DNA from: a virus
Virus record (IMG/VR): IMGVR_UViG_3300008108_004511
Coordinates: 1-20,562 of that record
Direction: 5' to 3' (one strand)
Length of the DNA stretch: 20,562 nucleotides
Shown here: one piece after another, positions 1,122 through 13,217 of the stretch
Numbering within the stretch: the first letter of the stretch is position 1
How the letters are laid out: each line of letters opens with the position of its first letter
The notes under the pieces: generated by a model
What the model saw: only the letters and a program-made list of their open reading frames with translations
Databases searched by the model: none
What the model was told of the DNA's origin: nothing
Made by a program: the position numbers and the translations under genes

Positions 1122-1129
1122 TATAAATA
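1122..1129 (+). promoter_or_regulatory. T4-type late promoter TATAAATA, drives curli-like operon
   Basis: This is an exact match to the T4 late promoter octamer, which is recognised by host RNA polymerase with gp55 and gp33 in T4. It overlaps the stop codon of the radical SAM gene. Late transcripts start about five or six bases downstream, which places +1 at or next to the ATG at 1135. No Shine-Dalgarno sequence precedes that ATG, so the transcript is probably leaderless. Confidence 0.7.
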
Positions 1130-1134
1130 GTTGT

Positions 1135-1422
1135 ATGAACTACGACGCTATTTTTAAATTGATTGCTGATGTCGGATTCCCTATCGCAGCTGCGCTGATT
1201 GCTGGGGTTTTTGTTTACTTCGTCATTAATTATATTTTAGAAAGTGTTGTGAAAGCCATTAAGGGTATGCAAGGTATTATCATGGGACTCGACAATCGAG
1301 TTCGAACGATGAACCATGACATTATCCGAATGGATGCGGTTGTAAGTTCGGCACTAGGACTGAAACCGGATCTGGATCGTATCGCTCGAGCCGACGGGAA
1401 GAACGATGCGAGAAAAGATTAA
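1135..1422 (+). CDS. Small one-helix membrane protein (YvrJ/holin-like), copy 1
   Basis: This 95-aa protein begins MNYDAIFKLIADVGFPIAAA. A short amphipathic N-terminus with the VGFPI motif leads into one membrane helix (about residues 15-40) and then a charged, probably coiled-coil tail (DNRVRTMNHDIIRMD). The plan resembles YvrJ-family and BhlA-like holin proteins, though no function is established. I chose ATG 1135 because it follows the late promoter directly and the N-terminus then aligns with the next gene; in-frame upstream codons lie inside the radical SAM gene. The stop overlaps the start of the paralogue by one base (TAATG). It could be a holin candidate, since the endolysin in this window has no signal peptide, or a membrane partner of the curli-like system. 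Confidence 0.75.
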   Translation: MNYDAIFKLIADVGFPIAAALIAGVFVYFVINYILESVVKAIKGMQGIIMGLDNRVRTMNHDIIRMDAVVSSALGLKPDLDRIARADGKNDARKD

Positions 1423-1685
1423 TGGATTTAAATACGGTTGCTGAACTTGTAAAACAATATGGTTTTCCTATTGTCTCCTCGGTGGGTATGGGATATTTTG
1501 TATGGTTTATCTACAAGTTCGTTACAGATAAATTAATGCCATTGATTGGTGAGACAAACGCTATTTTGATTGCTCTCATTGATCGTGTTCGCATGCTTGA
1601 TAATGATATGATTCGGTTACAACAGAAGGTGAGTGTAGTATTGCAGATAAAGGAAGATCACGATGAATATAAATCTAAAGATTGA
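1422..1685 (+). CDS. Small one-helix membrane protein (YvrJ/holin-like), copy 2
   Basis: This 87-aa paralogue of the preceding protein shares YGFPI before the membrane helix (about residues 15-37) and a tail with the same rhythm (LIDRVRMLDNDMIRLQQKV against LDNRVRTMNHDIIRMDAVV). It appears to have arisen by tandem duplication followed by divergence. The tail shows heptad-like spacing, so a homo- or hetero-oligomer is plausible. The ATG overlaps the previous stop (TAATG), which implies translational coupling. Its function is unknown; holin or antiholin pairing or an envelope adaptor are both possible. Confidence 0.75.
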   Translation: MDLNTVAELVKQYGFPIVSSVGMGYFVWFIYKFVTDKLMPLIGETNAILIALIDRVRMLDNDMIRLQQKVSVVLQIKEDHDEYKSKD

Positions 1686-1809
1686 AATCATTAAGATCTT
1701 CTCGCTTGAGTTTAGTCTTTCTTCTGAAAAGAAAAAGGAAGAAGAAAGTGTCGAAGAAACTAGCAATATTGACGTTATTGATATGCTTCAGCGCGCCGGC
1801 AAAAGCTGA
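1663..1809 (+). CDS. Short overlapping ORF, 48 aa, charged
   Basis: ATG 1663 has a good ribosome site (AGGAAG at 1651-1656, about 8 bases away) and opens a 48-codon frame ending in TGA at 1807-1809. It fills the space between the second small membrane protein (ends 1685) and csgF (starts 1748), overlapping both in another frame. The product starts MNINLKIEIIKIFSLEF and continues into a Lys/Glu-rich stretch, with no signal peptide or cysteines. It resembles nothing I recognise. It may be a genuine small protein, or only a coupling ORF that carries ribosomes to the csgF start. Confidence 0.45.
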   Translation: MNINLKIEIIKIFSLEFSLSSEKKKEEESVEETSNIDVIDMLQRAGKS

Positions 1810-2194
1810 TCCGATTGTACAACAGTTTAAAAGTCCTTCCTTCAATGGATATGGATGGTCACAACATGTGCAAGCAATCGATGCGCAAGAGCGTTCTCGT
1901 GAGCAAGCAATCAAAGATGCCGAAGCCGCAAAGCTAGCTCTTGCGAGATCCGAAGCAGCTAACACTCCGCTTGCCAAGTTTATGGCACTGTTTACATCTC
2001 AGGTATATGCTCAGCTGGCGACGCAGCTTTCAAACAATCTTTTTGCTGAAGGTTCTGCTCAACAGGGCATATTCACCCTCGATGGTAATACGATTAGCTA
2101 TGTAAAAACTGGTACATCAGTGACGTTGACGGTTGTCGACAAAGCTGGTAATACGACAGTCGTGACTGTTCCTATCGCAACCTTTGGGTTCTAA
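1748..2194 (+). CDS. csgF: CsgF-like curli assembly protein
   Basis: This 148-aa secreted protein has a signal peptide at residues 1-20 ending AKA, before DPIVQQFKSPSFNG. That segment matches the N-terminus of mature E. coli CsgF (TFQFRNPNFGG), which inserts into the CsgG channel. The C-terminal half (FTSQVYAQLATQLSNNLF, then an IFTLDGNTISYV strand and VTLTVVDKAGNTTVVTVPI) matches the CsgF pattern of FTQAIQSQILGGLLS, DYIVDI and LNVTDRKTGQTSTIQV. CsgF couples curlin secretion to surface nucleation. The middle (about residues 40-75) is a longer Ala/Glu/Lys-rich helix. I chose the GTG start at 1748 because AAGGA lies 8 bases upstream and the signal peptide begins there; the open frame extends back to a TTG at 1682 that would add a basic, non-leader stretch. 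The csgG gene follows after 9 bases. Confidence 0.87.
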   Translation: MSKKLAILTLLICFSAPAKADPIVQQFKSPSFNGYGWSQHVQAIDAQERSREQAIKDAEAAKLALARSEAANTPLAKFMALFTSQVYAQLATQLSNNLFAEGSAQQGIFTLDGNTISYVKTGTSVTLTVVDKAGNTTVVTVPIATFGF

Positions 2195-2203
2195 GGAAAA
2201 GCC

Positions 2204-3028
2204 ATGAAAAAACTACTCTTGCTTCCAATACTTCTTGCAACATCTGGTTGCATAGGCGGAATGCATCCTCATCTGAATCAGTCATATCTTCTACGAGAAG
2301 ATGCTGAGGTAGAAAGATTTGCAAATCCTAAGTTGTTTAAAAATCTACCAGAGCTCGATGGACAAGTGATTCCTATCGCTATCTACTCGTTCACTGATAG
2401 AACAGGACAACGTAAACCTTCTGCTACTCAAGCCAGCTTCTCGACGGCGGTAACTCAAGGCGCCGATGCTTATGTTATCAAAACATTGGCAGATACTGGC
2501 GATGGCAAGTGGTTTCGTCCAGTCGAACGCGTAGGTATCGATTCTCTTATTAAAGAACGTCAGCTTGTAAGGCAGATGAGAGAACAGCAACTCGGAGAAG
2601 GTGCAGAACCACTTCCTCCTCTCATGGTTGCAGGTATCATTCTTGAAGGCGGTATTATTGACTATAGTTCAAATACCAAGACTGGTGGTAACGGTGCACG
2701 ATTCCTTGGAATTGGTCCTTATCAGCAGTACGCAGAAGATCAAGTTACTATTAGTATGCGACTCGTCTCAGTACAGACAGGTGAAGTCCTCACCTCTGTC
2801 ACTGTTGAGAAGAATCTGCTCTCTACATCCGAGGGAGTGACAGCATTTAAATTCTTTGACATGGCAACAAAAGCTTTTGAATTTGATGGACAACAAACAT
2901 CGAATGAAGCTGGTAGTTATGCGATCCGTTCAGCCATAGAAACGGCCGTTGTGGAATTGATCAAGGATGGTGAACGTAAAGGTCTATGGAGATTTAAGCA
3001 AAAGGAAACAACAAATGAAGTTAAGTAA
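2204..3028 (+). CDS. csgG: CsgG-like outer-membrane curli secretion channel (lipoprotein)
   Basis: This 274-aa protein is a full-length match to CsgG (E. coli, 277 aa). Residues 1-15 are a lipoprotein signal ending LLATSG|C16, so the mature protein should be acylated at Cys16 and sent to the outer membrane. Recognisable CsgG segments include YSFTDRTGQRKPS, ASFSTAVTQGADAYV, KWFRPVERVGIDSLIKERQ, PLMVAGIILEGGIIDYSSN, TKTGGNGARFLGIG, TGEVLTSVTVEKNLLS and the C-terminal SAIETAVVELIKDG. In E. coli nine subunits form the ungated pore for curlin export. In the constriction loop the phage protein keeps Phe79 of F-S-T-A-V but has Ser/Ala where E. coli has Tyr and Asn, and one extra residue. AAGGAAA precedes the ATG. 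The last 14 bases overlap the start of the curlin-like gene. Confidence 0.93.
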   Translation: MKKLLLLPILLATSGCIGGMHPHLNQSYLLREDAEVERFANPKLFKNLPELDGQVIPIAIYSFTDRTGQRKPSATQASFSTAVTQGADAYVIKTLADTGDGKWFRPVERVGIDSLIKERQLVRQMREQQLGEGAEPLPPLMVAGIILEGGIIDYSSNTKTGGNGARFLGIGPYQQYAEDQVTISMRLVSVQTGEVLTSVTVEKNLLSTSEGVTAFKFFDMATKAFEFDGQQTSNEAGSYAIRSAIETAVVELIKDGERKGLWRFKQKETTNEVK

Positions 3029-3788
3029 AGCTTTATTCGTTGGCGCTGCTCTTCTTTATGGAACATCTGCGGTTGCACAAACAGTGCTACCAACAGCCCC
3101 AACACCACCAACAATCGTAACTACCTCTCCGAATGAAGTGACTGCAGCCGCAGTTGCAACCACCAACAAGGTGTATATTGATCAAGAAGGCGGAAACGTT
3201 GATGTTAACATTGTTCAGACAGGCACTGCCAACATTATTGGCGATTCTGGTGATCCTATCTACCTACGCGGCGATAATCAAAGTGTCATCGCTGTACAAA
3301 CAGGTAACGGAAACCAACTCTACATGGGAATCGTATCCGCAACTGGAGGCACAGGAGTTGCCACAGCTACAATACGCCAAATCGGCGACCTAAATACTGC
3401 AGACATTCGTTGCGGTACTTTAGTATCTGACGCGATCTGTAATCAGTTCGATATGAACGCTCGCTTTACTGGCGATTCAAACTCTCTTGTGTTCCATGGT
3501 TCGGGTGCAAATATCCGTAACTCGATGGATATCACTGGTGATAACAACACGTTCAATATCGACGCGCTGTCACCAAATGCTACGCAGACTGTTCTTGTCA
3601 CAGGTGACTACAATGACTTCGACGTGACACAAACAGGTCTCGGCGGAACATTTGGACATTCGCTCTATGTGAATCTTACAGGTACACTGAACACCATTAC
3701 AACCCAGCAATACGGAGCTTCGGAAACCGTAATCAATCTTAAGTCGACGGGTTCAAATGGTACGTTTAATATCAAGACTGGCCATTAA
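3015..3788 (+). CDS. Secreted curlin-like repeat protein (putative amyloid subunit)
   Basis: This 257-aa protein has a signal peptide at residues 1-21 (LLYGTSAVA|Q), a Pro/Thr-rich spacer (24-40) and then degenerate curlin-type repeats. Each repeat has the G-x-x-N-x-(5)-Q-x-G rhythm: DVNIVQTGTAN, QSVIAVQTGNGNQ, TIRQIGDLNTADI, ITGDNNTFNI, VTGDYNDFDVTQTG and LTGTLNTITTQQ. Curlin repeats in CsgA and CsgB stack into a cross-beta solenoid. Position directly after csgG makes it the natural export substrate. The start at ATG 3015 is supported by AAAGGA at 3001-3006. Two cysteines (C133, C142) sit between repeats and could form a disulfide. The 3' end overlaps the FecR gene by 32 bases. It could act as either a major subunit or a nucleator; these cannot be told apart here. 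Confidence 0.75.
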   Translation: MKLSKALFVGAALLYGTSAVAQTVLPTAPTPPTIVTTSPNEVTAAAVATTNKVYIDQEGGNVDVNIVQTGTANIIGDSGDPIYLRGDNQSVIAVQTGNGNQLYMGIVSATGGTGVATATIRQIGDLNTADIRCGTLVSDAICNQFDMNARFTGDSNSLVFHGSGANIRNSMDITGDNNTFNIDALSPNATQTVLVTGDYNDFDVTQTGLGGTFGHSLYVNLTGTLNTITTQQYGASETVINLKSTGSNGTFNIKTGH

Positions 3789-4893
3789 TCTCTTACTTCT
3801 GATATCGGTTCCCGCCTTTGCAGGCGTGGGATCGATATCAGAGTTTCAGGGCGGAGGTTCCGTGAAGCGTGGTGCAAAGGTCGCACCTGCTGCTAAAGGC
3901 TCGAGTATCGAAAAGAACGATACCGTCTCTACCAATTCTCAGGGTAGATTTAAGATTCGATTCGTCGATGCCACCACAGTTAACATCACACAAAATTCAA
4001 GGTTAGTCATCGATGATTTCGTCTATGATGGAAACAATAAGAGCAAAGGCAAGCTTGGTCTTAAGCTGGCTTTGGGAACTGCGAGATATACTTCTGGTGG
4101 CATTGCTCATGGCAACGCTCGCGGTGTTGGTATACGGACACCCACCGCAACGATTGCCGTAAGAGGCACAGACTTTGTCATGTCAGTCGATGAGGCCGGC
4201 AGATCGACTGTTGTCCTCGTTCCAGAATGTTATAACGATAAAGATATTACAAAGATCAACTTCGAATGCCCGTCTGGAGCTATCGATGTTATCACTGCTG
4301 CAGGTATCGTGACTCTGACTCAGCCATTCCAAGCAACGATGGTCGAGAATTCTTACGCTCCTCCTGCTCCTCCGGTCGTAATTAACCCTGCAATGAAGGG
4401 TATGGACAACAATATTCAGATCTCTCCTCTCGAAACAGACGATGGACAATCACTCATCAACGCTGCTCGCGAATCACTCAAGAAATTTGTCAATCCTGCA
4501 AAAGCCGCATCTGATGACAACCAAGATCCAAATACCGGTGGAGACGGCGTAGAAGAAGTCGCAGTTGCTACTCTTCGTTTGCCTACTCAAGATGAACTTC
4601 AAAATATCTATGCAGAGTATAATTCTGGTGCAAGACCGACAGAAACTATCTACACAAACGTATCTCCTACTTTCAAGAAACAACTGCAAGTCGGATGGGT
4701 ATACTCGAGAATCTCAGAGGATAAGAATCAATCTGTGATCGTATGGTTACCAAAAGACACAGAAATTCAACTCGTTTCTGTACAGAATGGAATCGTCGAC
4801 GCCTACAATTTTATGGATGATAAATGGACTACGACAGGTACAGGTAGACCACAAGGAAATATCACCGTAATACAAGAGTCAGGTGCAAGATGA
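3757..4893 (+). CDS. Secreted FecR-domain protein
   Basis: This 378-aa protein has a signal peptide at residues 1-22 (LLLLISVPAFA|G) followed by a FecR domain (about 24-150). The domain shows the family's succession of strands: KGSSIEKNDTVSTNSQGRF, VNITQNSRLVIDDF, LKLALGTARY, VGIRTPTATIAVRGTDF and VDEAGRSTVVLV. The rest (about 160-378) has no domain I recognise and includes Pro-rich and acidic stretches. Classical FecR relays signals from TonB-dependent receptors to FecI sigma factors, but many secreted FecR proteins lie beside CHASE2 cyclases or surface proteins, as here. No FecI or TonB receptor is visible. The ATG at 3757 lies 32 bases inside the curlin gene with no clear ribosome site, so it probably depends on coupling. 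The stop overlaps the next start (ATGA). Confidence 0.82.
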   Translation: MVRLISRLAINLLLLISVPAFAGVGSISEFQGGGSVKRGAKVAPAAKGSSIEKNDTVSTNSQGRFKIRFVDATTVNITQNSRLVIDDFVYDGNNKSKGKLGLKLALGTARYTSGGIAHGNARGVGIRTPTATIAVRGTDFVMSVDEAGRSTVVLVPECYNDKDITKINFECPSGAIDVITAAGIVTLTQPFQATMVENSYAPPAPPVVINPAMKGMDNNIQISPLETDDGQSLINAARESLKKFVNPAKAASDDNQDPNTGGDGVEEVAVATLRLPTQDELQNIYAEYNSGARPTETIYTNVSPTFKKQLQVGWVYSRISEDKNQSVIVWLPKDTEIQLVSVQNGIVDAYNFMDDKWTTTGTGRPQGNITVIQESGAR

Positions 4894-6350
4894 TCAGATG
4901 GATCTTAACACTACTACTGTTAACGTTTAGCGTACAGTTAAATGCGCAGACGCCTTCGAACTATGGTTTCGAAGATGGAACTTATGCAGGTTGGACAGTT
5001 TCTAACGGATCCACCACACTTCGAACGAGTTGGTCAGATTCTGGTCAGGGAGTTCAAGTGACAACTGGCATGCAAAACTATTGCCCAGGTGGAGGTAAGT
5101 GCTGGACAATTACACCTTATGGTTCTTATATGATATCGGTCCAAGCAGGAGGAAGTTCTCCTCAATTCAATACAGCCATGACTACGCTTGGTCTAAGCTC
5201 AACCGATATTACAACCATTCGAAATACGATCTATTCGAATGGGTCAATGTATCCTACGAATGCTTCGTCTGTGAGTAGAACCGTATTCCTACAAGCCGGA
5301 ATTACATACACGTTTGGCTGGCAATATCTGTCGACCGACTATGTTCCTTACAACGACGGCTCGATGATTACGTTGACGAATGGACCAGGAATTCCAACTT
5401 TAAACGGTCAGACACAGAATTATGCTCTGCTCGGATTTACCAATCAAGGAACTGGTAACTATTCAGTAGGATCTTATGGTGCCACTGGTTGGCAACTCGC
5501 CGTGTTTACTGTACCGACTGATGGCAACTATACGCTCGGCTTCTCGTCATTCAATCTTGGTGACACAGCTCTTTCTCCTATCTTGTTCATCGACCAGTTG
5601 CAAGGAACAACAACTCTGAATGGAACCACGTTTAATCCTATAGCTCCAAACGAAGGATCGTCTGCACCGACCACACCTCCACCTCCACCTCCAGCGCCTG
5701 CATATCCTGCTGTATCGATTACGACTAATCAGACTATTAAGCTTGGCCAGACGAATGCTATTACAAGTAACTCGATTTACATTCAAAATATCGGCGATAA
5801 TAATACCGTCAACGTCGAACAGTTCTCAAGGTTTAATGCCATCAGAGGTGTTAACGGTTCTCAAGACATGTTAATTAATGGTAGCAACAACAATATTACT
5901 ATTAATCAAGGCACTGCTACTACCGTTCTCGGAAACAATCTTGCCGAAGTGTCTGTCACTGGTAATAATAACACCGTATCTCTTACACAACAAAATAATG
6001 GTAAGTATACAGAGCTGGTAATGAATGGAACGGGAAATCAACTGACTGCTCAGCAGAAAGATGCCGGTGGAAAGTATGCGTTCTTCAATATCTTAGGTAA
6101 CTCGAATGTAATTACTACTTTGCAACAAGGCACAGGTAATCACTTCTTAGATATCAGCGCACCTTATGGCGGATTGAATGCAACCATCACTCAATCTGGT
6201 GCTTCACAAAAGCTGTTTCAACTGATAATAAATAATCCAGGAATTGGAGTCACTGTATCGCAAACTGCTGCGAGTGCTACTGACTCCGCTTCAATGACAA
6301 TAACATGCGCGACAGGACCTTGCAGTGGGTACAGCTACACAAAAAATTAA
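4890..6350 (+). CDS. Secreted adhesin-like protein: beta-sandwich plus curlin-like repeats
   Basis: This 486-aa protein has a signal peptide at residues 1-19 (TFSVQLNA|Q). Residues 22-245 look like a jelly-roll beta-sandwich of the kind used in carbohydrate binding or surface proteins: the opening NYGFEDGTYAGWTVSNGS is a typical N-terminal strand pair, with FTVPTDGNYTLGF and LFIDQLQ near its end. A proline-rich linker (about 258-272, PPPPPP) leads to repeats at about 290-455 with the G-x-x-N-x-(5)-Q pattern: YIQNIGDNNTVNVEQF, LINGSNNNITINQG, VSVTGNNNTVSLTQQ, LVMNGTGNQLTAQQ, ILGNSNVITTLQQG and LNATITQSGA. The repeats could co-polymerise with the curlin-like protein and display the sandwich domain. 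Two C-terminal cysteines (C473, C478) end the protein. AGGTG at 4881-4885 precedes the ATG. The last 26 bases overlap the cyclase gene. Confidence 0.75.
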   Translation: MIRWILTLLLLTFSVQLNAQTPSNYGFEDGTYAGWTVSNGSTTLRTSWSDSGQGVQVTTGMQNYCPGGGKCWTITPYGSYMISVQAGGSSPQFNTAMTTLGLSSTDITTIRNTIYSNGSMYPTNASSVSRTVFLQAGITYTFGWQYLSTDYVPYNDGSMITLTNGPGIPTLNGQTQNYALLGFTNQGTGNYSVGSYGATGWQLAVFTVPTDGNYTLGFSSFNLGDTALSPILFIDQLQGTTTLNGTTFNPIAPNEGSSAPTTPPPPPPAPAYPAVSITTNQTIKLGQTNAITSNSIYIQNIGDNNTVNVEQFSRFNAIRGVNGSQDMLINGSNNNITINQGTATTVLGNNLAEVSVTGNNNTVSLTQQNNGKYTELVMNGTGNQLTAQQKDAGGKYAFFNILGNSNVITTLQQGTGNHFLDISAPYGGLNATITQSGASQKLFQLIINNPGIGVTVSQTAASATDSASMTITCATGPCSGYSYTKN

Positions 6351-8388
6351 ATCGATTCTTCTGAGCCCATGGCTGGCGATCTTTACGTTCGCTCTTCTTA
6401 TGACAGTAAAGATCTCGGATCCATATCTCGTCGAAGCCACTCGCCTCAAGTTTTACGACTACCTTATGATTTCTGAACCAAAGAAGTCAGAACAGATCGT
6501 TTTGATAAATATTGGCGAGAAAGCGATTGAGAAATATGGCCAATATCCGTTCCCGCGTAAAGTCTACGCTGACATTCATTCTGAGGTCTATGGCCGAGGG
6601 GCTGCTCTTGTTGGTAGCACTATACTTTACCCTGAGCGTGATCGGTTGGGGACTGATCGAGATCTTGCGGATTCGCTAAAGCAATATCCTGTCGTTCTTA
6701 GCCAGACGGTAAGCGACTCTTGTTCACGGGCAAGCGCGACAATTCGGAAGACAGGCGTTGCCGTAATCGGCGATGGAGAAGCAACTGAATTTCTTCCTCA
6801 ATACCCATGCGTTCTAAGTAATGTCTCAGTTCTTCAAGAAGCCGCAGCCGGTGTTGGGATAACGTCAACCCTACCCGAGACTGATGGGGTTGTAAGGCGA
6901 GTTCCTCTTCTATCTGAGTCATCAGGCGAATACTATCCCGCATTTGCTCTAGAGATGCTGCGTGTAGCTGCAGGAGACTCTTCGTATCAAGCCAAGATAA
7001 ATCAGACTGGGGTTGAAGCATTACGAATTCCTTCTTTTGAAACAATTAAAACAGACGAGTATGGAAGAACCTTCATCAATCCGAACTACCAATTTCAATC
7101 ATACGAAATTGGTGCGGGTCCTTTGCCCGATCTGGCAGGTAAAATCGCGATTGTTGGAGTGACTGCAGCTGGGCTAAGTAACCCTGTAGCGACTCCTTCA
7201 GGTGCCCAACATCCCCATCAACTCCAAGCGAGTATTCTTGAGACTCTGATAAATGGGGACTCTGTGTCGATTCCGAATTGGATTCCGCTTGTAGATCTTG
7301 GCGGGTTTCTTCTTCTTTTCCTGGCATTGGTAGTTATCTCTCGATTTAAGTTCTCGTATGTATATATCGCAGCATTGATTGCTGCCTATGTGTATTTACC
7401 GGTGTACTTATTCGGCACTTATGGTATAATGATGGATATCAGCTTCAACGTATTAGGCGCGCTGCTGATCTACATTCATATCTATACAGTGAAATTTATC
7501 TCAGAGTATTTACAGAAGCAACAGATTAAGAAACAGTTCGGCACATATCTGAGCCCAGATCTGGTAGCAAGACTACAAAGACAACCAGAACTCTTGAAGC
7601 TTGGCGGAGAATCACGTGATCTTTCGATCATGTTTACAGACGTTCGCGGATTTACTACAATCTCTGAACACTACGGAGATGATGTCCAAGGCTTGACTTC
7701 TATTATGAATCGTTACATGACAGTCATGACACGGGCGATTCTCGAAAACAACGGCACACTTGATAAGTATATTGGTGATGCGCAAATGGCATTCTGGAAT
7801 GCTCCGCTCGATAACAATAAGCATGCATTAGATGCTGTTCGAACTGCCTTTCAAATGTTAAAAGATTTGGAGATTTTCAATGAAGAGATTAAAGGAGAAG
7901 GCATTCCAGCTTTCGGTATGGGTCTTGGTATTAACACTGCCACTGTGGTTGTGGGTAATATGGGCTCTGATCAGCGTTTCGATTATACTTGTCTGGGCGA
8001 CGGCGTTAATTTGGCTGCTCGTCTGGAAGGTCAAACCAAGCCTTATGGAGTTAAACTCATCGTCGGGCCACAAACGGCCGAATTGGTGGGGTCTGTATAC
8101 CAAATAGTCGAACTCGATCTGATTGCTGTCAAAGGTAAGACAGAACCAGCAAGAATCTACACCGTTCTCGATGTTTCTGACGGCGCTGGAGAATTACTAC
8201 ATAAGAAGTTCCTCGATCTCTATCGTCAAGGCAAATGGGATGAAGCTCTGAATCTTATAAAAGATCTCAAGCGATGCTGGAACGAAGAGCTCAATGCATA
8301 CTATGCTATGATGGAACAAAGAATATATGATTTGAAGACTGATGAACCACTCAAGTGGGACGGAGTTTATAGAGCTACCAGTAAGTGA
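6325..8388 (+). CDS. CHASE2-domain transmembrane class III adenylate cyclase
   Basis: This 687-aa protein has one N-terminal membrane helix (about 11-28), a periplasmic CHASE2 sensor (about 30-310), three further helices (about 321-339, 343-361, 366-388), a linker (KQQIKKQFGTYLSPDLVARL) and a class III cyclase domain (about 430-615). Catalytic residues are complete: metal-binding D439 (IMFTDVRGFT) and D485 (KYIGDAQMAFW), the adenine-selecting pair K481 and T555, and transition-state N562 and R566 (GDGVNLAARLE). Lys/Thr at those positions favours ATP, so cAMP is the expected product. A 70-aa helical tail follows. The GTG start at 6325 has AGGA at 6314-6317 and overlaps the adhesin gene. Gly GGG and Pro CCC codons are unusually frequent in the CHASE2 part. 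CHASE2 ligands are unknown; the adjacent secreted FecR and curlin-like proteins are candidate partners. Confidence 0.92.
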   Translation: MGTATQKIKSILLSPWLAIFTFALLMTVKISDPYLVEATRLKFYDYLMISEPKKSEQIVLINIGEKAIEKYGQYPFPRKVYADIHSEVYGRGAALVGSTILYPERDRLGTDRDLADSLKQYPVVLSQTVSDSCSRASATIRKTGVAVIGDGEATEFLPQYPCVLSNVSVLQEAAAGVGITSTLPETDGVVRRVPLLSESSGEYYPAFALEMLRVAAGDSSYQAKINQTGVEALRIPSFETIKTDEYGRTFINPNYQFQSYEIGAGPLPDLAGKIAIVGVTAAGLSNPVATPSGAQHPHQLQASILETLINGDSVSIPNWIPLVDLGGFLLLFLALVVISRFKFSYVYIAALIAAYVYLPVYLFGTYGIMMDISFNVLGALLIYIHIYTVKFISEYLQKQQIKKQFGTYLSPDLVARLQRQPELLKLGGESRDLSIMFTDVRGFTTISEHYGDDVQGLTSIMNRYMTVMTRAILENNGTLDKYIGDAQMAFWNAPLDNNKHALDAVRTAFQMLKDLEIFNEEIKGEGIPAFGMGLGINTATVVVGNMGSDQRFDYTCLGDGVNLAARLEGQTKPYGVKLIVGPQTAELVGSVYQIVELDLIAVKGKTEPARIYTVLDVSDGAGELLHKKFLDLYRQGKWDEALNLIKDLKRCWNEELNAYYAMMEQRIYDLKTDEPLKWDGVYRATSK

Positions 8389-9009: not shown

Positions 9010-9056
9010 TTTTTAGCATGTACATTTTATCAAAAGTTTGGTAAGGTGGACCTATA

Positions 9057-11526: not shown

Positions 11527-12039
11527 ATGGTAAAAATAGTAGATAATTTTTTATCAGAAGAACTTTACCAAAACTGTTATGACTCTGCGGCAAAGATTTA
11601 TGGAGCTGGAGATAATGTGTTTTTTACTAATGCAAATTGGCCGTATGAAATTGTAAAAGATAGCTATCCAGTTTTATGTCATAACATCTATAGAGATAGT
11701 TCTTTATTTGAAAATATCTACAATAGTACAATGAACTATGGATATCGACCGGTAGAAGGAGGATCTATCTTATTCTACTTTTGGACCGCACATAGCTATA
11801 TTCCCTGGCATACTGACACAGATAGACAACAGGCAGCTATCACTGTATATTTAAATCCTGAATGGGACCGCGATTATGGCGGATACTTTATGTACGAGGA
11901 TCGTGCAGAGATCAAAGCCATCTTACCTAAAAGAAATCGTGCAGTGATCAACGACCTAGGTCACGAACACTGCACGACTCCTGTGCATCCTAACGGTAAA
12001 CTGAGAGTTACTCTTCAGATATTCTGTAACAAGATTTAG
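11527..12039 (+). CDS. Fe(II)/2-oxoglutarate oxygenase (prolyl hydroxylase-like)
   Basis: This 170-aa protein has iron ligands H-T-D (YIPWHTDTDRQ), a central AAITVYLNPEWDRDYGGYF segment, and a distal His in INDLGHEHCTTPVHP followed by KLRVTLQIF, whose Arg would hold 2-oxoglutarate. This is the prolyl-4-hydroxylase-like layout common in T4-like phages; the substrate is unknown. I chose ATG 11527 because GGGA lies 8 bases upstream; ATG 11518 would add three residues. Leu is often TTA here, unlike the neighbouring genes, which suggests separate acquisition. Its stop overlaps the stop of the convergent endolysin gene, and the endolysin transcript probably runs antisense through the whole gene. 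Confidence 0.82.
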   Translation: MVKIVDNFLSEELYQNCYDSAAKIYGAGDNVFFTNANWPYEIVKDSYPVLCHNIYRDSSLFENIYNSTMNYGYRPVEGGSILFYFWTAHSYIPWHTDTDRQQAAITVYLNPEWDRDYGGYFMYEDRAEIKAILPKRNRAVINDLGHEHCTTPVHPNGKLRVTLQIFCNKI

Positions 12040-13217
12040 CCCCAGTTGGCATACTGCTTCGTCTTCTTCAGACGATCGTCAAGACCGTGTGTACCGCCAT
12101 TCACTCGCTTCGAGATTTGAGTGATCACAGCATCGGTTACACCCTTATCTGCAATTGCAAGCAATCCATTCTTACGGAAGAACCATAATGCAGACTCAAA
12201 AGCCAACTCGCCAACCACAAGATCAGGATTCTTCAAGACGTCAGGACGTTTTACGTCAGCGGCAAAAGCTGTATAGTTGTCTTTCCCGGTCAGTTGGATC
12301 GGGCCTCGACCACGCCACTTCCAACCATCTCCAGAGGCTTCTGAACCGTTCCCCATCCGATTAGCGTAAACCTTATTAGCGATCTTTTCTGGCTTACGTG
12401 CATAACCTGCAGTCGAAGCGATCGTAGGAAAATACTTCTTGAAGATGCCGTTAAGTCCCTTATCTGAGTAGTTCAGGTTTTCAGAGAATACCTTAAAGCC
12501 ACCTGACTCGTGAGCACACTGACCAAAGAAGTGCGCAGCTTGGTTGTTAGTCAGTTTGAAATAATCTCTGGCTGCCTTATAAGTGCCAGGTCCCCATTTA
12601 CCGTCGGCAGTAATGCCACATTTGGTTTGGAGTGCAGCTAATGGACCAAGTCCTGCAGCTACTGGTTTTGCTTGTGTGACAGAGTCAGTGATCTGTGAGT
12701 TGATTGCCTTGATGGTAGGTGCACCAGCTGCCTTTGTTGTCGACGGATCAAAGTCAGCAACAGTAGTATACACTGTACCACCTGCCTTCGACTTCGTGGC
12801 GATCATGCGCATCTTACGATTGCCTCCACCCTTCTTAATCGAAGCGTGAACCCAACCAGAATTCTTATCGCCCTTTGTGTAGAACTCGAGAATCACTTGG
12901 TCGAATTCAAGGTTGTCACCGATCCAGTCAGCAACTACTTTGTTGTCAATACCAGGAATTTCGAAGTCGATTGCTTGGCCGTTGACGTGTTGTGATGTCT
13001 TCGATCCGCCAACTGCCTTGTTCACCAGCGGTGCACGATAAGACGAGTTGATCTGAACAGGTTTGCCAAAGTGATTACGTACTGGTTCGAGAATCTTCTC
13101 GCAGCAGTAACGCATGTTCTCGATATGTTCTGGAGTTGGGGTATTGCTGAGTCCAAGTCTTTTTGCAGTAGGAGAAACAATCATCTCTGCCAAAGAAAAA
13201 TGTTCAGTTAGTTTCAT
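12036..13217 (-). CDS. Two-domain endolysin: M15 peptidase plus GH19 glycosidase
   Basis: This 393-aa protein has an N-terminal M15/VanY-like peptidase (about 1-130) with zinc motif SQHVNGQAIDF (H77, D84) and GWVH (H124), expected to cut peptidoglycan cross-bridges. A linker (about 150-190) leads to a GH19 chitinase/lysozyme domain (about 192-393) with the catalytic Glu in FGQCAHESGGF (E237), a second candidate Glu at E293, and the substrate-cleft signature RGRGPIQLTGKDNY (about 302-315). It would cut both the peptide and the glycan part of the cell wall. No signal peptide or membrane anchor is present, so a holin is needed. It is the only minus-strand gene in the window. The ATG at 13217 follows AAAGGCG on the minus strand. 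It diverges from the polymerase gene across 75 bases. Confidence 0.87.
   Translation of the reverse strand: MKLTEHFSLAEMIVSPTAKRLGLSNTPTPEHIENMRYCCEKILEPVRNHFGKPVQINSSYRAPLVNKAVGGSKTSQHVNGQAIDFEIPGIDNKVVADWIGDNLEFDQVILEFYTKGDKNSGWVHASIKKGGGNRKMRMIATKSKAGGTVYTTVADFDPSTTKAAGAPTIKAINSQITDSVTQAKPVAAGLGPLAALQTKCGITADGKWGPGTYKAARDYFKLTNNQAAHFFGQCAHESGGFKVFSENLNYSDKGLNGIFKKYFPTIASTAGYARKPEKIANKVYANRMGNGSEASGDGWKWRGRGPIQLTGKDNYTAFAADVKRPDVLKNPDLVVGELAFESALWFFRKNGLLAIADKGVTDAVITQISKRVNGGTHGLDDRLKKTKQYANWG

Follow-up and report, generated by a model that had tools for sequence, protein, structure and literature searches.

A curli-type export and signalling cassette in a T4-like phage genome and its bacterial counterpart

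The 20,562-base IMG/VR virus record IMGVR_UViG_3300008108_004511 (hereafter the window, i.e. the whole stretch analysed) contains T4-like replication genes, namely those for a DNA polymerase and a UvsX-like recombinase. At positions 1122-8388 it carries a cassette composed of a late promoter box, two small membrane genes (TM1 and TM2), csgF, csgG, a curlin gene, fecR, a second curlin gene and a gene for a CHASE2 adenylate cyclase. All cassette genes lie on the + strand, and neighbours overlap or almost abut. Sequence comparison establishes the gene content, the fixed order and the purifying selection of this cassette. We propose that it is an accessory, late-transcribed type VIII (curli) module that would coat infected cells with fibres and provide a cyclic AMP (cAMP) readout through FecR and CHASE2; we hold this reading, in which export, fibre formation, binding and signalling are the parts we infer, to be probable by a modest measure.

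An initial annotation had described an operon of a T4-like phage in which a curli export set is combined with cargo, a CHASE2 cyclase and FecR, and Pfam matches and gene order confirmed this (Table 1). Its gene list was right for the six main genes and missed the two small membrane genes between the box and csgF (1135-1422 and 1422-1685). Profile searches, which it had proposed as a check, matched both CsgG (PF03783, 2.8e-52) and CsgF (PF10614, 3.1e-17; 63.4 bits versus a cut-off of 25.8). Residues 2-268 of CsgG can be aligned with E. coli CsgG chains (2.4e-45), and the CsgG lipobox LLATSGC can be read directly in the sequence; for CsgF, no NCBIfam family matched at 0.01. The first cargo matched Curlin_rpt (5.8e-6) with 26.6 bits versus a cut-off of 20.7, and first curlins have a median length of 239 residues (56-369, pieces included). 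CsgF, CsgG, FecR and the cyclase each match PHROGs families of unknown function.

Misassembly of bacterial sequence next to phage genes, which the same annotation had named as a possible refutation, was ruled out, because three IMG/VR contigs (L002, L003 and L012) are 99.77-99.97% identical to the window in long aligned pieces that span the cassette and its flanks, and because the G+C of the cassette resembles that of its surroundings (about 44% for the window). Ratios of nonsynonymous to synonymous substitution (dN/dS) for the six cassette genes, compared with four relatives, were 0.04-0.19 in all comparisons that yielded a dS estimate, several dS values being saturated. Judged from these ratios, the six genes are held under purifying selection.

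We then tabulated co-occurrence, as the initial annotation had suggested. Viral contigs were scanned with CsgG, the cyclase and a small-gene alignment, giving 194 loci on 169 distinct contigs; the best 80 matches were kept of each of the cyclase and small-gene scans, and contigs were merged by name where repeats were noticed, others being counted separately. A full-length cyclase preceded by 5.5 kb or more of sequence was available on 89 distinct contigs, and in 88 of these CsgF, CsgG, FecR and curlin lie upstream of it in the same orientation. The order csgF-csgG-curlin-fecR-curlin was present in 59 of these 88, a single curlin in 28 and two csgG matches in one; 60 had two or more curlins. 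Since the loci were selected for matching one part or another of the cassette, these counts show linkage and not prevalence. As both curlin profiles converged on the same 173 open reading frames (ORFs), first and second curlins were told apart by position. In the exceptional contig, L260, the cyclase lies beyond the TM pair, and in L249 csgG is found elsewhere on the record, apart from both the TM pair and the cyclase; because of these two arrangements, the cyclase can evidently leave the operon. The cassette was also present on contigs of 236-361 kb (L111, L117, L089 and L288) and is therefore not limited to phages of T4 size.

The second curlin combines a curlin part with N-terminal domains that are exchangeable. 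For the 59 proteins whose genes separate fecR from the cyclase gene, the C-terminal curlin part could be aligned, and Curlin_rpt was matched at E <= 0.1 in 17 of 21 members of the second-curlin alignment (best 5.2e-8), some relatives of the window protein passing the cut-off. Residues 21-190 of the 59 fell into groups of 31, 10, 6 and 6 plus six singles, three of which are not separate kinds: the L290 sequence is a fragment of 39 residues, that of L260 is in fact a first curlin (the cyclase having moved) and that of L288 is without an added domain; furthermore L293, with an F5/8 type C domain, was grouped with the L074 type. Among 17 hand-chosen representatives, Pfam detected PA14 in four and F5/8 type C in one. 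The placed domains (PA14 at residues 35-144, 98-171 and 83-178; F5/8 at 201-280 of 627) all lie in the N-terminal half, and Curlin_rpt follows the domain in the two proteins where it was found. The median length is 465 residues (39-712, pieces included). The N-terminal part of the window protein has no Pfam name and matched no carbohydrate-binding Pfam domain. PA14, GLEYA and F5/8 type C domains often bind glycans. The second curlin can be read as a fibre-anchored binding subunit.

As for the FecR protein, PF04773 after the signal peptide is its sole domain above cut-off, no anti-sigma part was found, and neither a FecI nor a FecA partner was present among the ten ORFs scanned; a role as anti-sigma iron regulator of the FecIRA type was thus not supported. 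Its nearest NCBIfam names, below cut-off, are the surface proteins Lsa33 and LipL45. In the window, this exported protein is encoded near the CHASE2 enzyme, with one gene (the second curlin) in between. The cyclase matches solved adenylate cyclases; in an alignment of 22 rows, D439, K481, D485 and R566 are invariant and T555 and N562 occur in at least 90%. These six are the catalytic positions of class III cyclases, and by this alignment the phage cyclase keeps them. In 64 bacterial loci with room (15 too-short loci and L120 left out), a phage-built FecR profile found FecR immediately before the CHASE2 cyclase, without curli, in 27, divergently in one, one or two genes upstream in five and farther away in five. 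FecR/CHASE2 partnerships are described for a Campylobacterota cAMP cluster (PMC9239204), a Burkholderia biofilm operon (BiofilmReg; PMC5192318) and the cyaD1 region of S. meliloti (PMC5498481).

TM1 and TM2 are paralogues, with a single hydrophobic helix and a GFP-type motif followed by a conserved charged stretch in the alignment. PMC9599517 labels the small genes histidine kinases; no kinase domain (HisKA, HATPase) was found in 40 members of the TM family, for which 23 families were listed at E <= 1, and this label is thus not supported. YvrJ was matched weakly by 12 of the 40 members at E <= 1 (best 0.027), and the holin family phrog_4898 weakly matched the two small genes (E 0.015 and 0.043). 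When phage records were searched, the TM2 query matched only six entries, which belonged to Melnitz and HTVC008M. In the 89 contigs, the TM pair lay upstream in the same orientation in 72, whereas 15 had it on the opposite strand and one had it downstream; it was unseen in one. Where the TM pair is followed by 7 kb or more of sequence, which holds for 90 contigs, CsgG was present in the locus in 85. A 48-residue ORF with an LKIEI motif (1663-1809), which spans the junction of TM2 and csgF and overlaps both, was found mainly in the wider clade of the window.

Four records of 33-79 kb (L221, L227, L228 and L236) contained no csgG, with the reservation that csgG-less records may be fragments; a 20-kb record, L259, is also without csgG, but stops just behind the cyclase. 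L228 has a csgF piece (profile positions 5-66) running in frame into the end of a cyclase (602-680), L236 has a csgF stub (4-39), and L221 has a cyclase piece (242-288) and a csgF-like leader seen by eye only and unmatched by the CsgF profile. Because of these remnants, three of the four are likely to represent cassette losses. No cassette remnant was seen in L227, which aligns to window positions 1123-1712 and resumes at 9033, 113 bases standing where the window has 7,320; by this alignment it is an empty site with the neighbours of the window. The TM pair is intact in all four records, and the LKIEI ORF was also seen in L221, L227 and L228. The TM genes had no match near the bacterial operons described below or elsewhere in genomes G001, G775 and G839, the search of the remaining genome having no positive control. 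Since the TM genes are kept in csgG-less records and have no match in these three genomes, the simplest reading is that they are phage-side partners of the site, outside the bacterial module. A functional tie to the cassette is possible, given the long linkage even after inversion.

The exact late promoter that had been claimed ahead of the operon was confirmed as TATAAATA at 1122-1129. The window holds three exact copies versus 0.74 expected (at least three in 1 of 100 shuffles). Of 116 distinct regions upstream of TM1, 65 had an exact box no more than 150 nucleotides from the start, against a background of 0.009 per 150 nucleotides, and in 32 of the 65 the spacing was exactly 5 nucleotides; many others had longer spacers, and 51 regions were without an exact box. 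In a second count, 5-nucleotide spacing was seen in 26 of 53 TM boxes versus 4 of 156 boxes elsewhere in viral loci, and one of these four (L270) is itself a TM gene missed by the filter. The 5-nucleotide cases derive mostly from the wider clade of the window and are not independent, though the sequence preceding the box differs among many of them. In T4, the distance from the box to the late transcription start would put the start at the start codon. Together with the spacing, this suggests that the message of the first small gene is leaderless.

According to the proposed model, the cassette would be transcribed late, after which the CsgG/CsgF pore would sit in the outer membrane of the infected cell and export the first curlin as the constant fibre subunit. 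The second curlin would be exported as well, its conserved curlin part inserting into the fibre and its exchangeable N-terminal domain presenting a glycan-binding surface. FecR and the CHASE2 cyclase would form a periplasm-to-cytoplasm pair converting the state of the fibre or envelope into cAMP. The infected cell would thereby acquire a coat of fibres directed at glycans on the host or on neighbouring cells, leading to adhesion or receptor masking, and phages and Caulobacterales-type bacteria would have shared the six export and signalling genes as one block. A bolder version, which we offer tentatively as possible rather than probable, regards the second curlin as an aiming subunit whose glycan domain is swapped in the manner of receptor-binding proteins (PA14, F5/8 type C, CBM-like or none); the FecR-CHASE2 cAMP circuit, shared as a block with a rare Caulobacterales curli operon, would signal that fibres are out, a phage-owned late promoter would give a leaderless transcript, and the block would be gained and lost as a unit.

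Several observations weigh against the fibre-coat reading. The second curlin of the window itself scored 16.2 bits for Curlin_rpt (E 0.01), below the cut-off of 20.7, and 28 of the 89 contigs have a single curlin. Its AlphaFold model, built from 19 sequences, shows a beta-sandwich and C-terminal repeated beta strands at a weak mean predicted local distance difference test score (pLDDT) of 62.9; Foldseek gave no hit at or below 0.001 (best E 0.01, TmCBM61), and VIA scores of the sandwich (Z 5.6-7.2) and of the repeats (Z 7.9-9.0) mostly fall within the range of unrelated folds. The sandwich weakly resembles the EclA sugar-binding domain (Z 7.2; 107 residues, root mean square deviation 3.1) and TmCBM61 (Z 6.2; 117 residues, 3.3), and the repeats weakly resemble beta-helices. 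No CsgE-like gene was found by Pfam among the ten ORFs scanned. The four records without csgG indicate that the cassette is dispensable. FecR was not detected near 26 of the 64 bacterial CHASE2 cyclases with the phage-built profile, and the S. meliloti FecR-domain gene smc02177 is dispensable for plant-signal perception (PMC5498481). Finally, PMC9004378 reports no clumping in cytograms or transmission electron microscopy of Melnitz-infected cultures, a result qualified by the absence of the added N-terminal domain from the second curlin of Melnitz.

Other explanations for the cassette can be considered. The sibling capture proposed in PMC7029224 and taken up by PMC9599517, in which fibres clump dividing hosts so that released virions meet new ones, agrees with the complete set of cargo and export genes, and the PA14 or F5/8 type C domains of some second curlins would suit cell-to-cell adhesion; with the Melnitz cultures showing no clumping, we find it rather doubtful. 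Superinfection exclusion, suggested in PMC9599517, would have fibres and their binding domains mask host surface polysaccharide and so block rival phages. It requires no aggregation, and exchangeable domains fit surfaces that differ between hosts, but the late box implies late timing for exclusion. Moreover, of the eight cassette proteins the cyclase alone matches a defence profile, and this match (Pycsar PycC profiles to the cyclase domain, 8.2e-24) is a generic one; the other seven match no PADLOC model at 0.001, and no Pycsar effector gene was found in the cassette. We also regard exclusion as somewhat unlikely.

Two further proposals concern the pore itself. In PMC9004378, where a role in lysis is proposed for csgG and csgF of Melnitz, the CsgG/CsgF pore would depolarise or open the envelope and trigger the lysins. 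CsgG would indeed be an ungated pore if CsgE is absent, and the small genes are weakly holin- and YvrJ-like; however, this leaves unexplained both the cargo that accompanies the pore in 88 of 89 contigs and its exchangeable domains, and the window has its own endolysin, in a region that also aligns in the csgG-less L227. Lysis timing appears improbable to us. Even more so does an import pore for siderophores or nutrients, in which FecR would regulate iron (PMC7029224, PMC9599517): a FecR domain is present, but it stands alone after a signal peptide, without an anti-sigma part or FecI and FecA among the ten ORFs, the nearest bacterial cyclase relatives often adjoin FecR (27/64), and import has no need of curlin cargo. 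If the fibre-coat reading is true, the virus would rebuild the exterior of a dying cell with a targeted fibre, making the cell sticky or shielded in its last hours, and infections of this type would have to be pictured differently.

Table 1. Features of the cassette in the window
Feature	Position	Strand	Basis
T4-type late promoter box TATAAATA, exact	1122..1129	+	5 nt ahead of first start codon
TM1, small membrane protein, 95 aa, one hydrophobic helix, GFP motif	1135..1422	+	phrog_18771 8.1e-31; ATG 1135 picked by eye
TM2, small membrane protein, 87 aa, TM1 paralogue	1422..1685	+	phrog_18771 5.4e-30; alignment
Tiny conserved ORF, 48 aa, LKIEI motif	1663..1809	+	motif pattern, 32/108 distinct regions after TM2
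csgF, signal peptide	1748..2194	+	PF10614 3.1e-17; GTG 1748 chosen, open frame from 1682
csgG, lipoprotein pore	2204..3028	+	PF03783 2.8e-52; E. coli CsgG chains 2.4e-45
First curlin-repeat cargo, signal peptide	3015..3788	+	PF07012 5.8e-6; ATG 3015 chosen, open frame from 2967
FecR-domain protein, signal peptide	3757..4893	+	PF04773 1.4e-12 (residues 55-155); phrog_37870 1.4e-57
Second curlin-type protein: N-terminal beta-sandwich (CBM-like, low confidence), C-terminal curlin-type repeats	4890..6350	+	alignment, model, fold searches
CHASE2 adenylate cyclase, GTG start	6325..8388	+	PF05226 2e-34, PF00211 (Guanylate_cyc) 3.6e-16; phrog_35576 3.1e-234

Elsewhere in the window, a radical SAM/SPASM protein is encoded at 108-1121, directly before the late box. 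Its gene was present in 12 of 120 sequences searched (a number that includes the window, L001 and repeated contigs), so the surroundings of the cassette vary. An endolysin-like protein, the halves of which match two different endolysin families, is encoded at 12036-13217 on the - strand between + genes. No tRNA was found in the window, and its DNA polymerase is at most 50.7% identical to the matches listed, which are from cyanophages. A CsgG search of 50,697 phage records gave seven matches at 1e-5, four in Melnitz, two in HTVC008M and one in OR851715, a 1,499-base record named Salmonella phage. Salmonella has csgG, and OR851715 is thus probably a host fragment.

The suggestion that the full gene set is new was not borne out. 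PMC7029224 (2020) had found csgF and csgG in phages, PMC9004378 (2022) described them in Melnitz, and PMC9599517 (2022) described a gene series in podo- and myo-pelagiphages that begins with one or two 'histidine kinases', continues with CsgF, CsgG, CsgA/B and FecR, and ends with adenylate cyclase, often preceded by a second CsgA/B; the GenBank entries of HTVC008M (KC465899) and Melnitz (MZ577097) contain all six genes in the same order. In the open literature, with subscription papers mostly outside the searches, curli and FecR operons in Alphaproteobacteria, as well as phage curli with cyclase and FecR, were met only in PMC9599517; no report was found there joining CHASE2, phage and curli, none joining curli, a PA14 domain and phage, and none of a leaderless transcript from the phage late promoter TATAAATA. 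As far as these searches show, what is new compared with open papers is the bacterial csgF-csgG-curlin-fecR-cyclase operon, the fusion of a curlin part to exchangeable N-terminal domains, the kinase-domain-free small genes surviving in four csgG-less records and the late box 5 nucleotides ahead of the first start codon; the virus genomes without the cassette also look new. By comparing phage genomes with and without the cassette, a published guess becomes testable, the binding domain of the modular second curlin can be assayed on its own, and the bacterial operon with its FecR-cyclase pair offers genetic access to the circuit.

The bacterial operon was found in three genomes. In G001 (L120; Caulobacteraceae metagenome-assembled genome contig CANGCO010000005, 82.6 kb), the order is csgF-csgG-curlin-curlin-fecR-CHASE2 cyclase, with flanks that look bacterial by eye. 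In G839, of the same family, this operon has different neighbours, among them ORFs that by eye resemble TonB receptors and glycosyltransferases, and the cyclase is 93% identical to that of G001. In G775, of the same order, csgF-csgG-curlin-fecR-cyclase lies between TonB-receptor-like ORFs, and the cyclase is 49% identical to that of G001. According to PMC9599517, FecR and the cyclase are outside canonical bacterial curli operons; since all three genomes hold both, this statement has to be qualified. With phage-built profiles, FecR and the cyclase were not found at five other alphaproteobacterial curli loci (G096, G184, G349, G067 and G305; a sixth weak CsgF match, G180, lies outside these five). 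The operon is rare, as are close cyclases: counting the genome of the query and in samples that overlap, 398 genomes of the order yielded 2 at 1e-120, while at 1e-140 the class yielded 1 in 385 and the two families 2 in 199 and 1 in 105. In a cyclase tree that excludes G839, the phage group encloses the two cyclases from bacterial curli operons (99/100), and HTVC008M and Melnitz branch outside these two (97/95); a further 14 bacterial cyclases stand apart (100/100), L215 being a long branch. This topology may reflect phage-to-bacterium transfer, several donors or long-branch error, and does not settle the direction.

Among known systems, the cassette can be compared with the pelagiphage module of HTVC008M and Melnitz, with which it shares two small genes, csgF, csgG, curlin, fecR, curlin and CHASE2 cyclase in the same order; CsgG is 45-49% and the cyclase 40% identical, whereas the N-terminal domain of the second curlin is unlike the PA14 of HTVC008M, and Melnitz has none. 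CsgG, CsgF and curlin-repeat cargo are shared with E. coli curli, but CsgE, CsgC and CsgD are not among the ten phage ORFs scanned, FecR and the CHASE2 cyclase are added, and the phage cargo is longer and divergent. The FecR-CHASE2 pairs of PMC9239204, PMC5192318 and PMC5498481 likewise combine an extracytoplasmic FecR-domain protein with a CHASE2 sensor enzyme whose gene is adjacent or nearby, though curli genes go unmentioned in the accessible text of these papers, and the Burkholderia enzyme is a CHASE2 histidine kinase. The bacterial operon of G001, G839 and G775 shares csgF-csgG-curlin(s)-fecR-cyclase with the phage, and the G001 cyclase is 55% identical to that of the window. In this operon, however, all curlins precede fecR, while those of the phage flank it; the small membrane genes were not found in these bacteria, and no added domain was found in the two bacterial curlins scanned.

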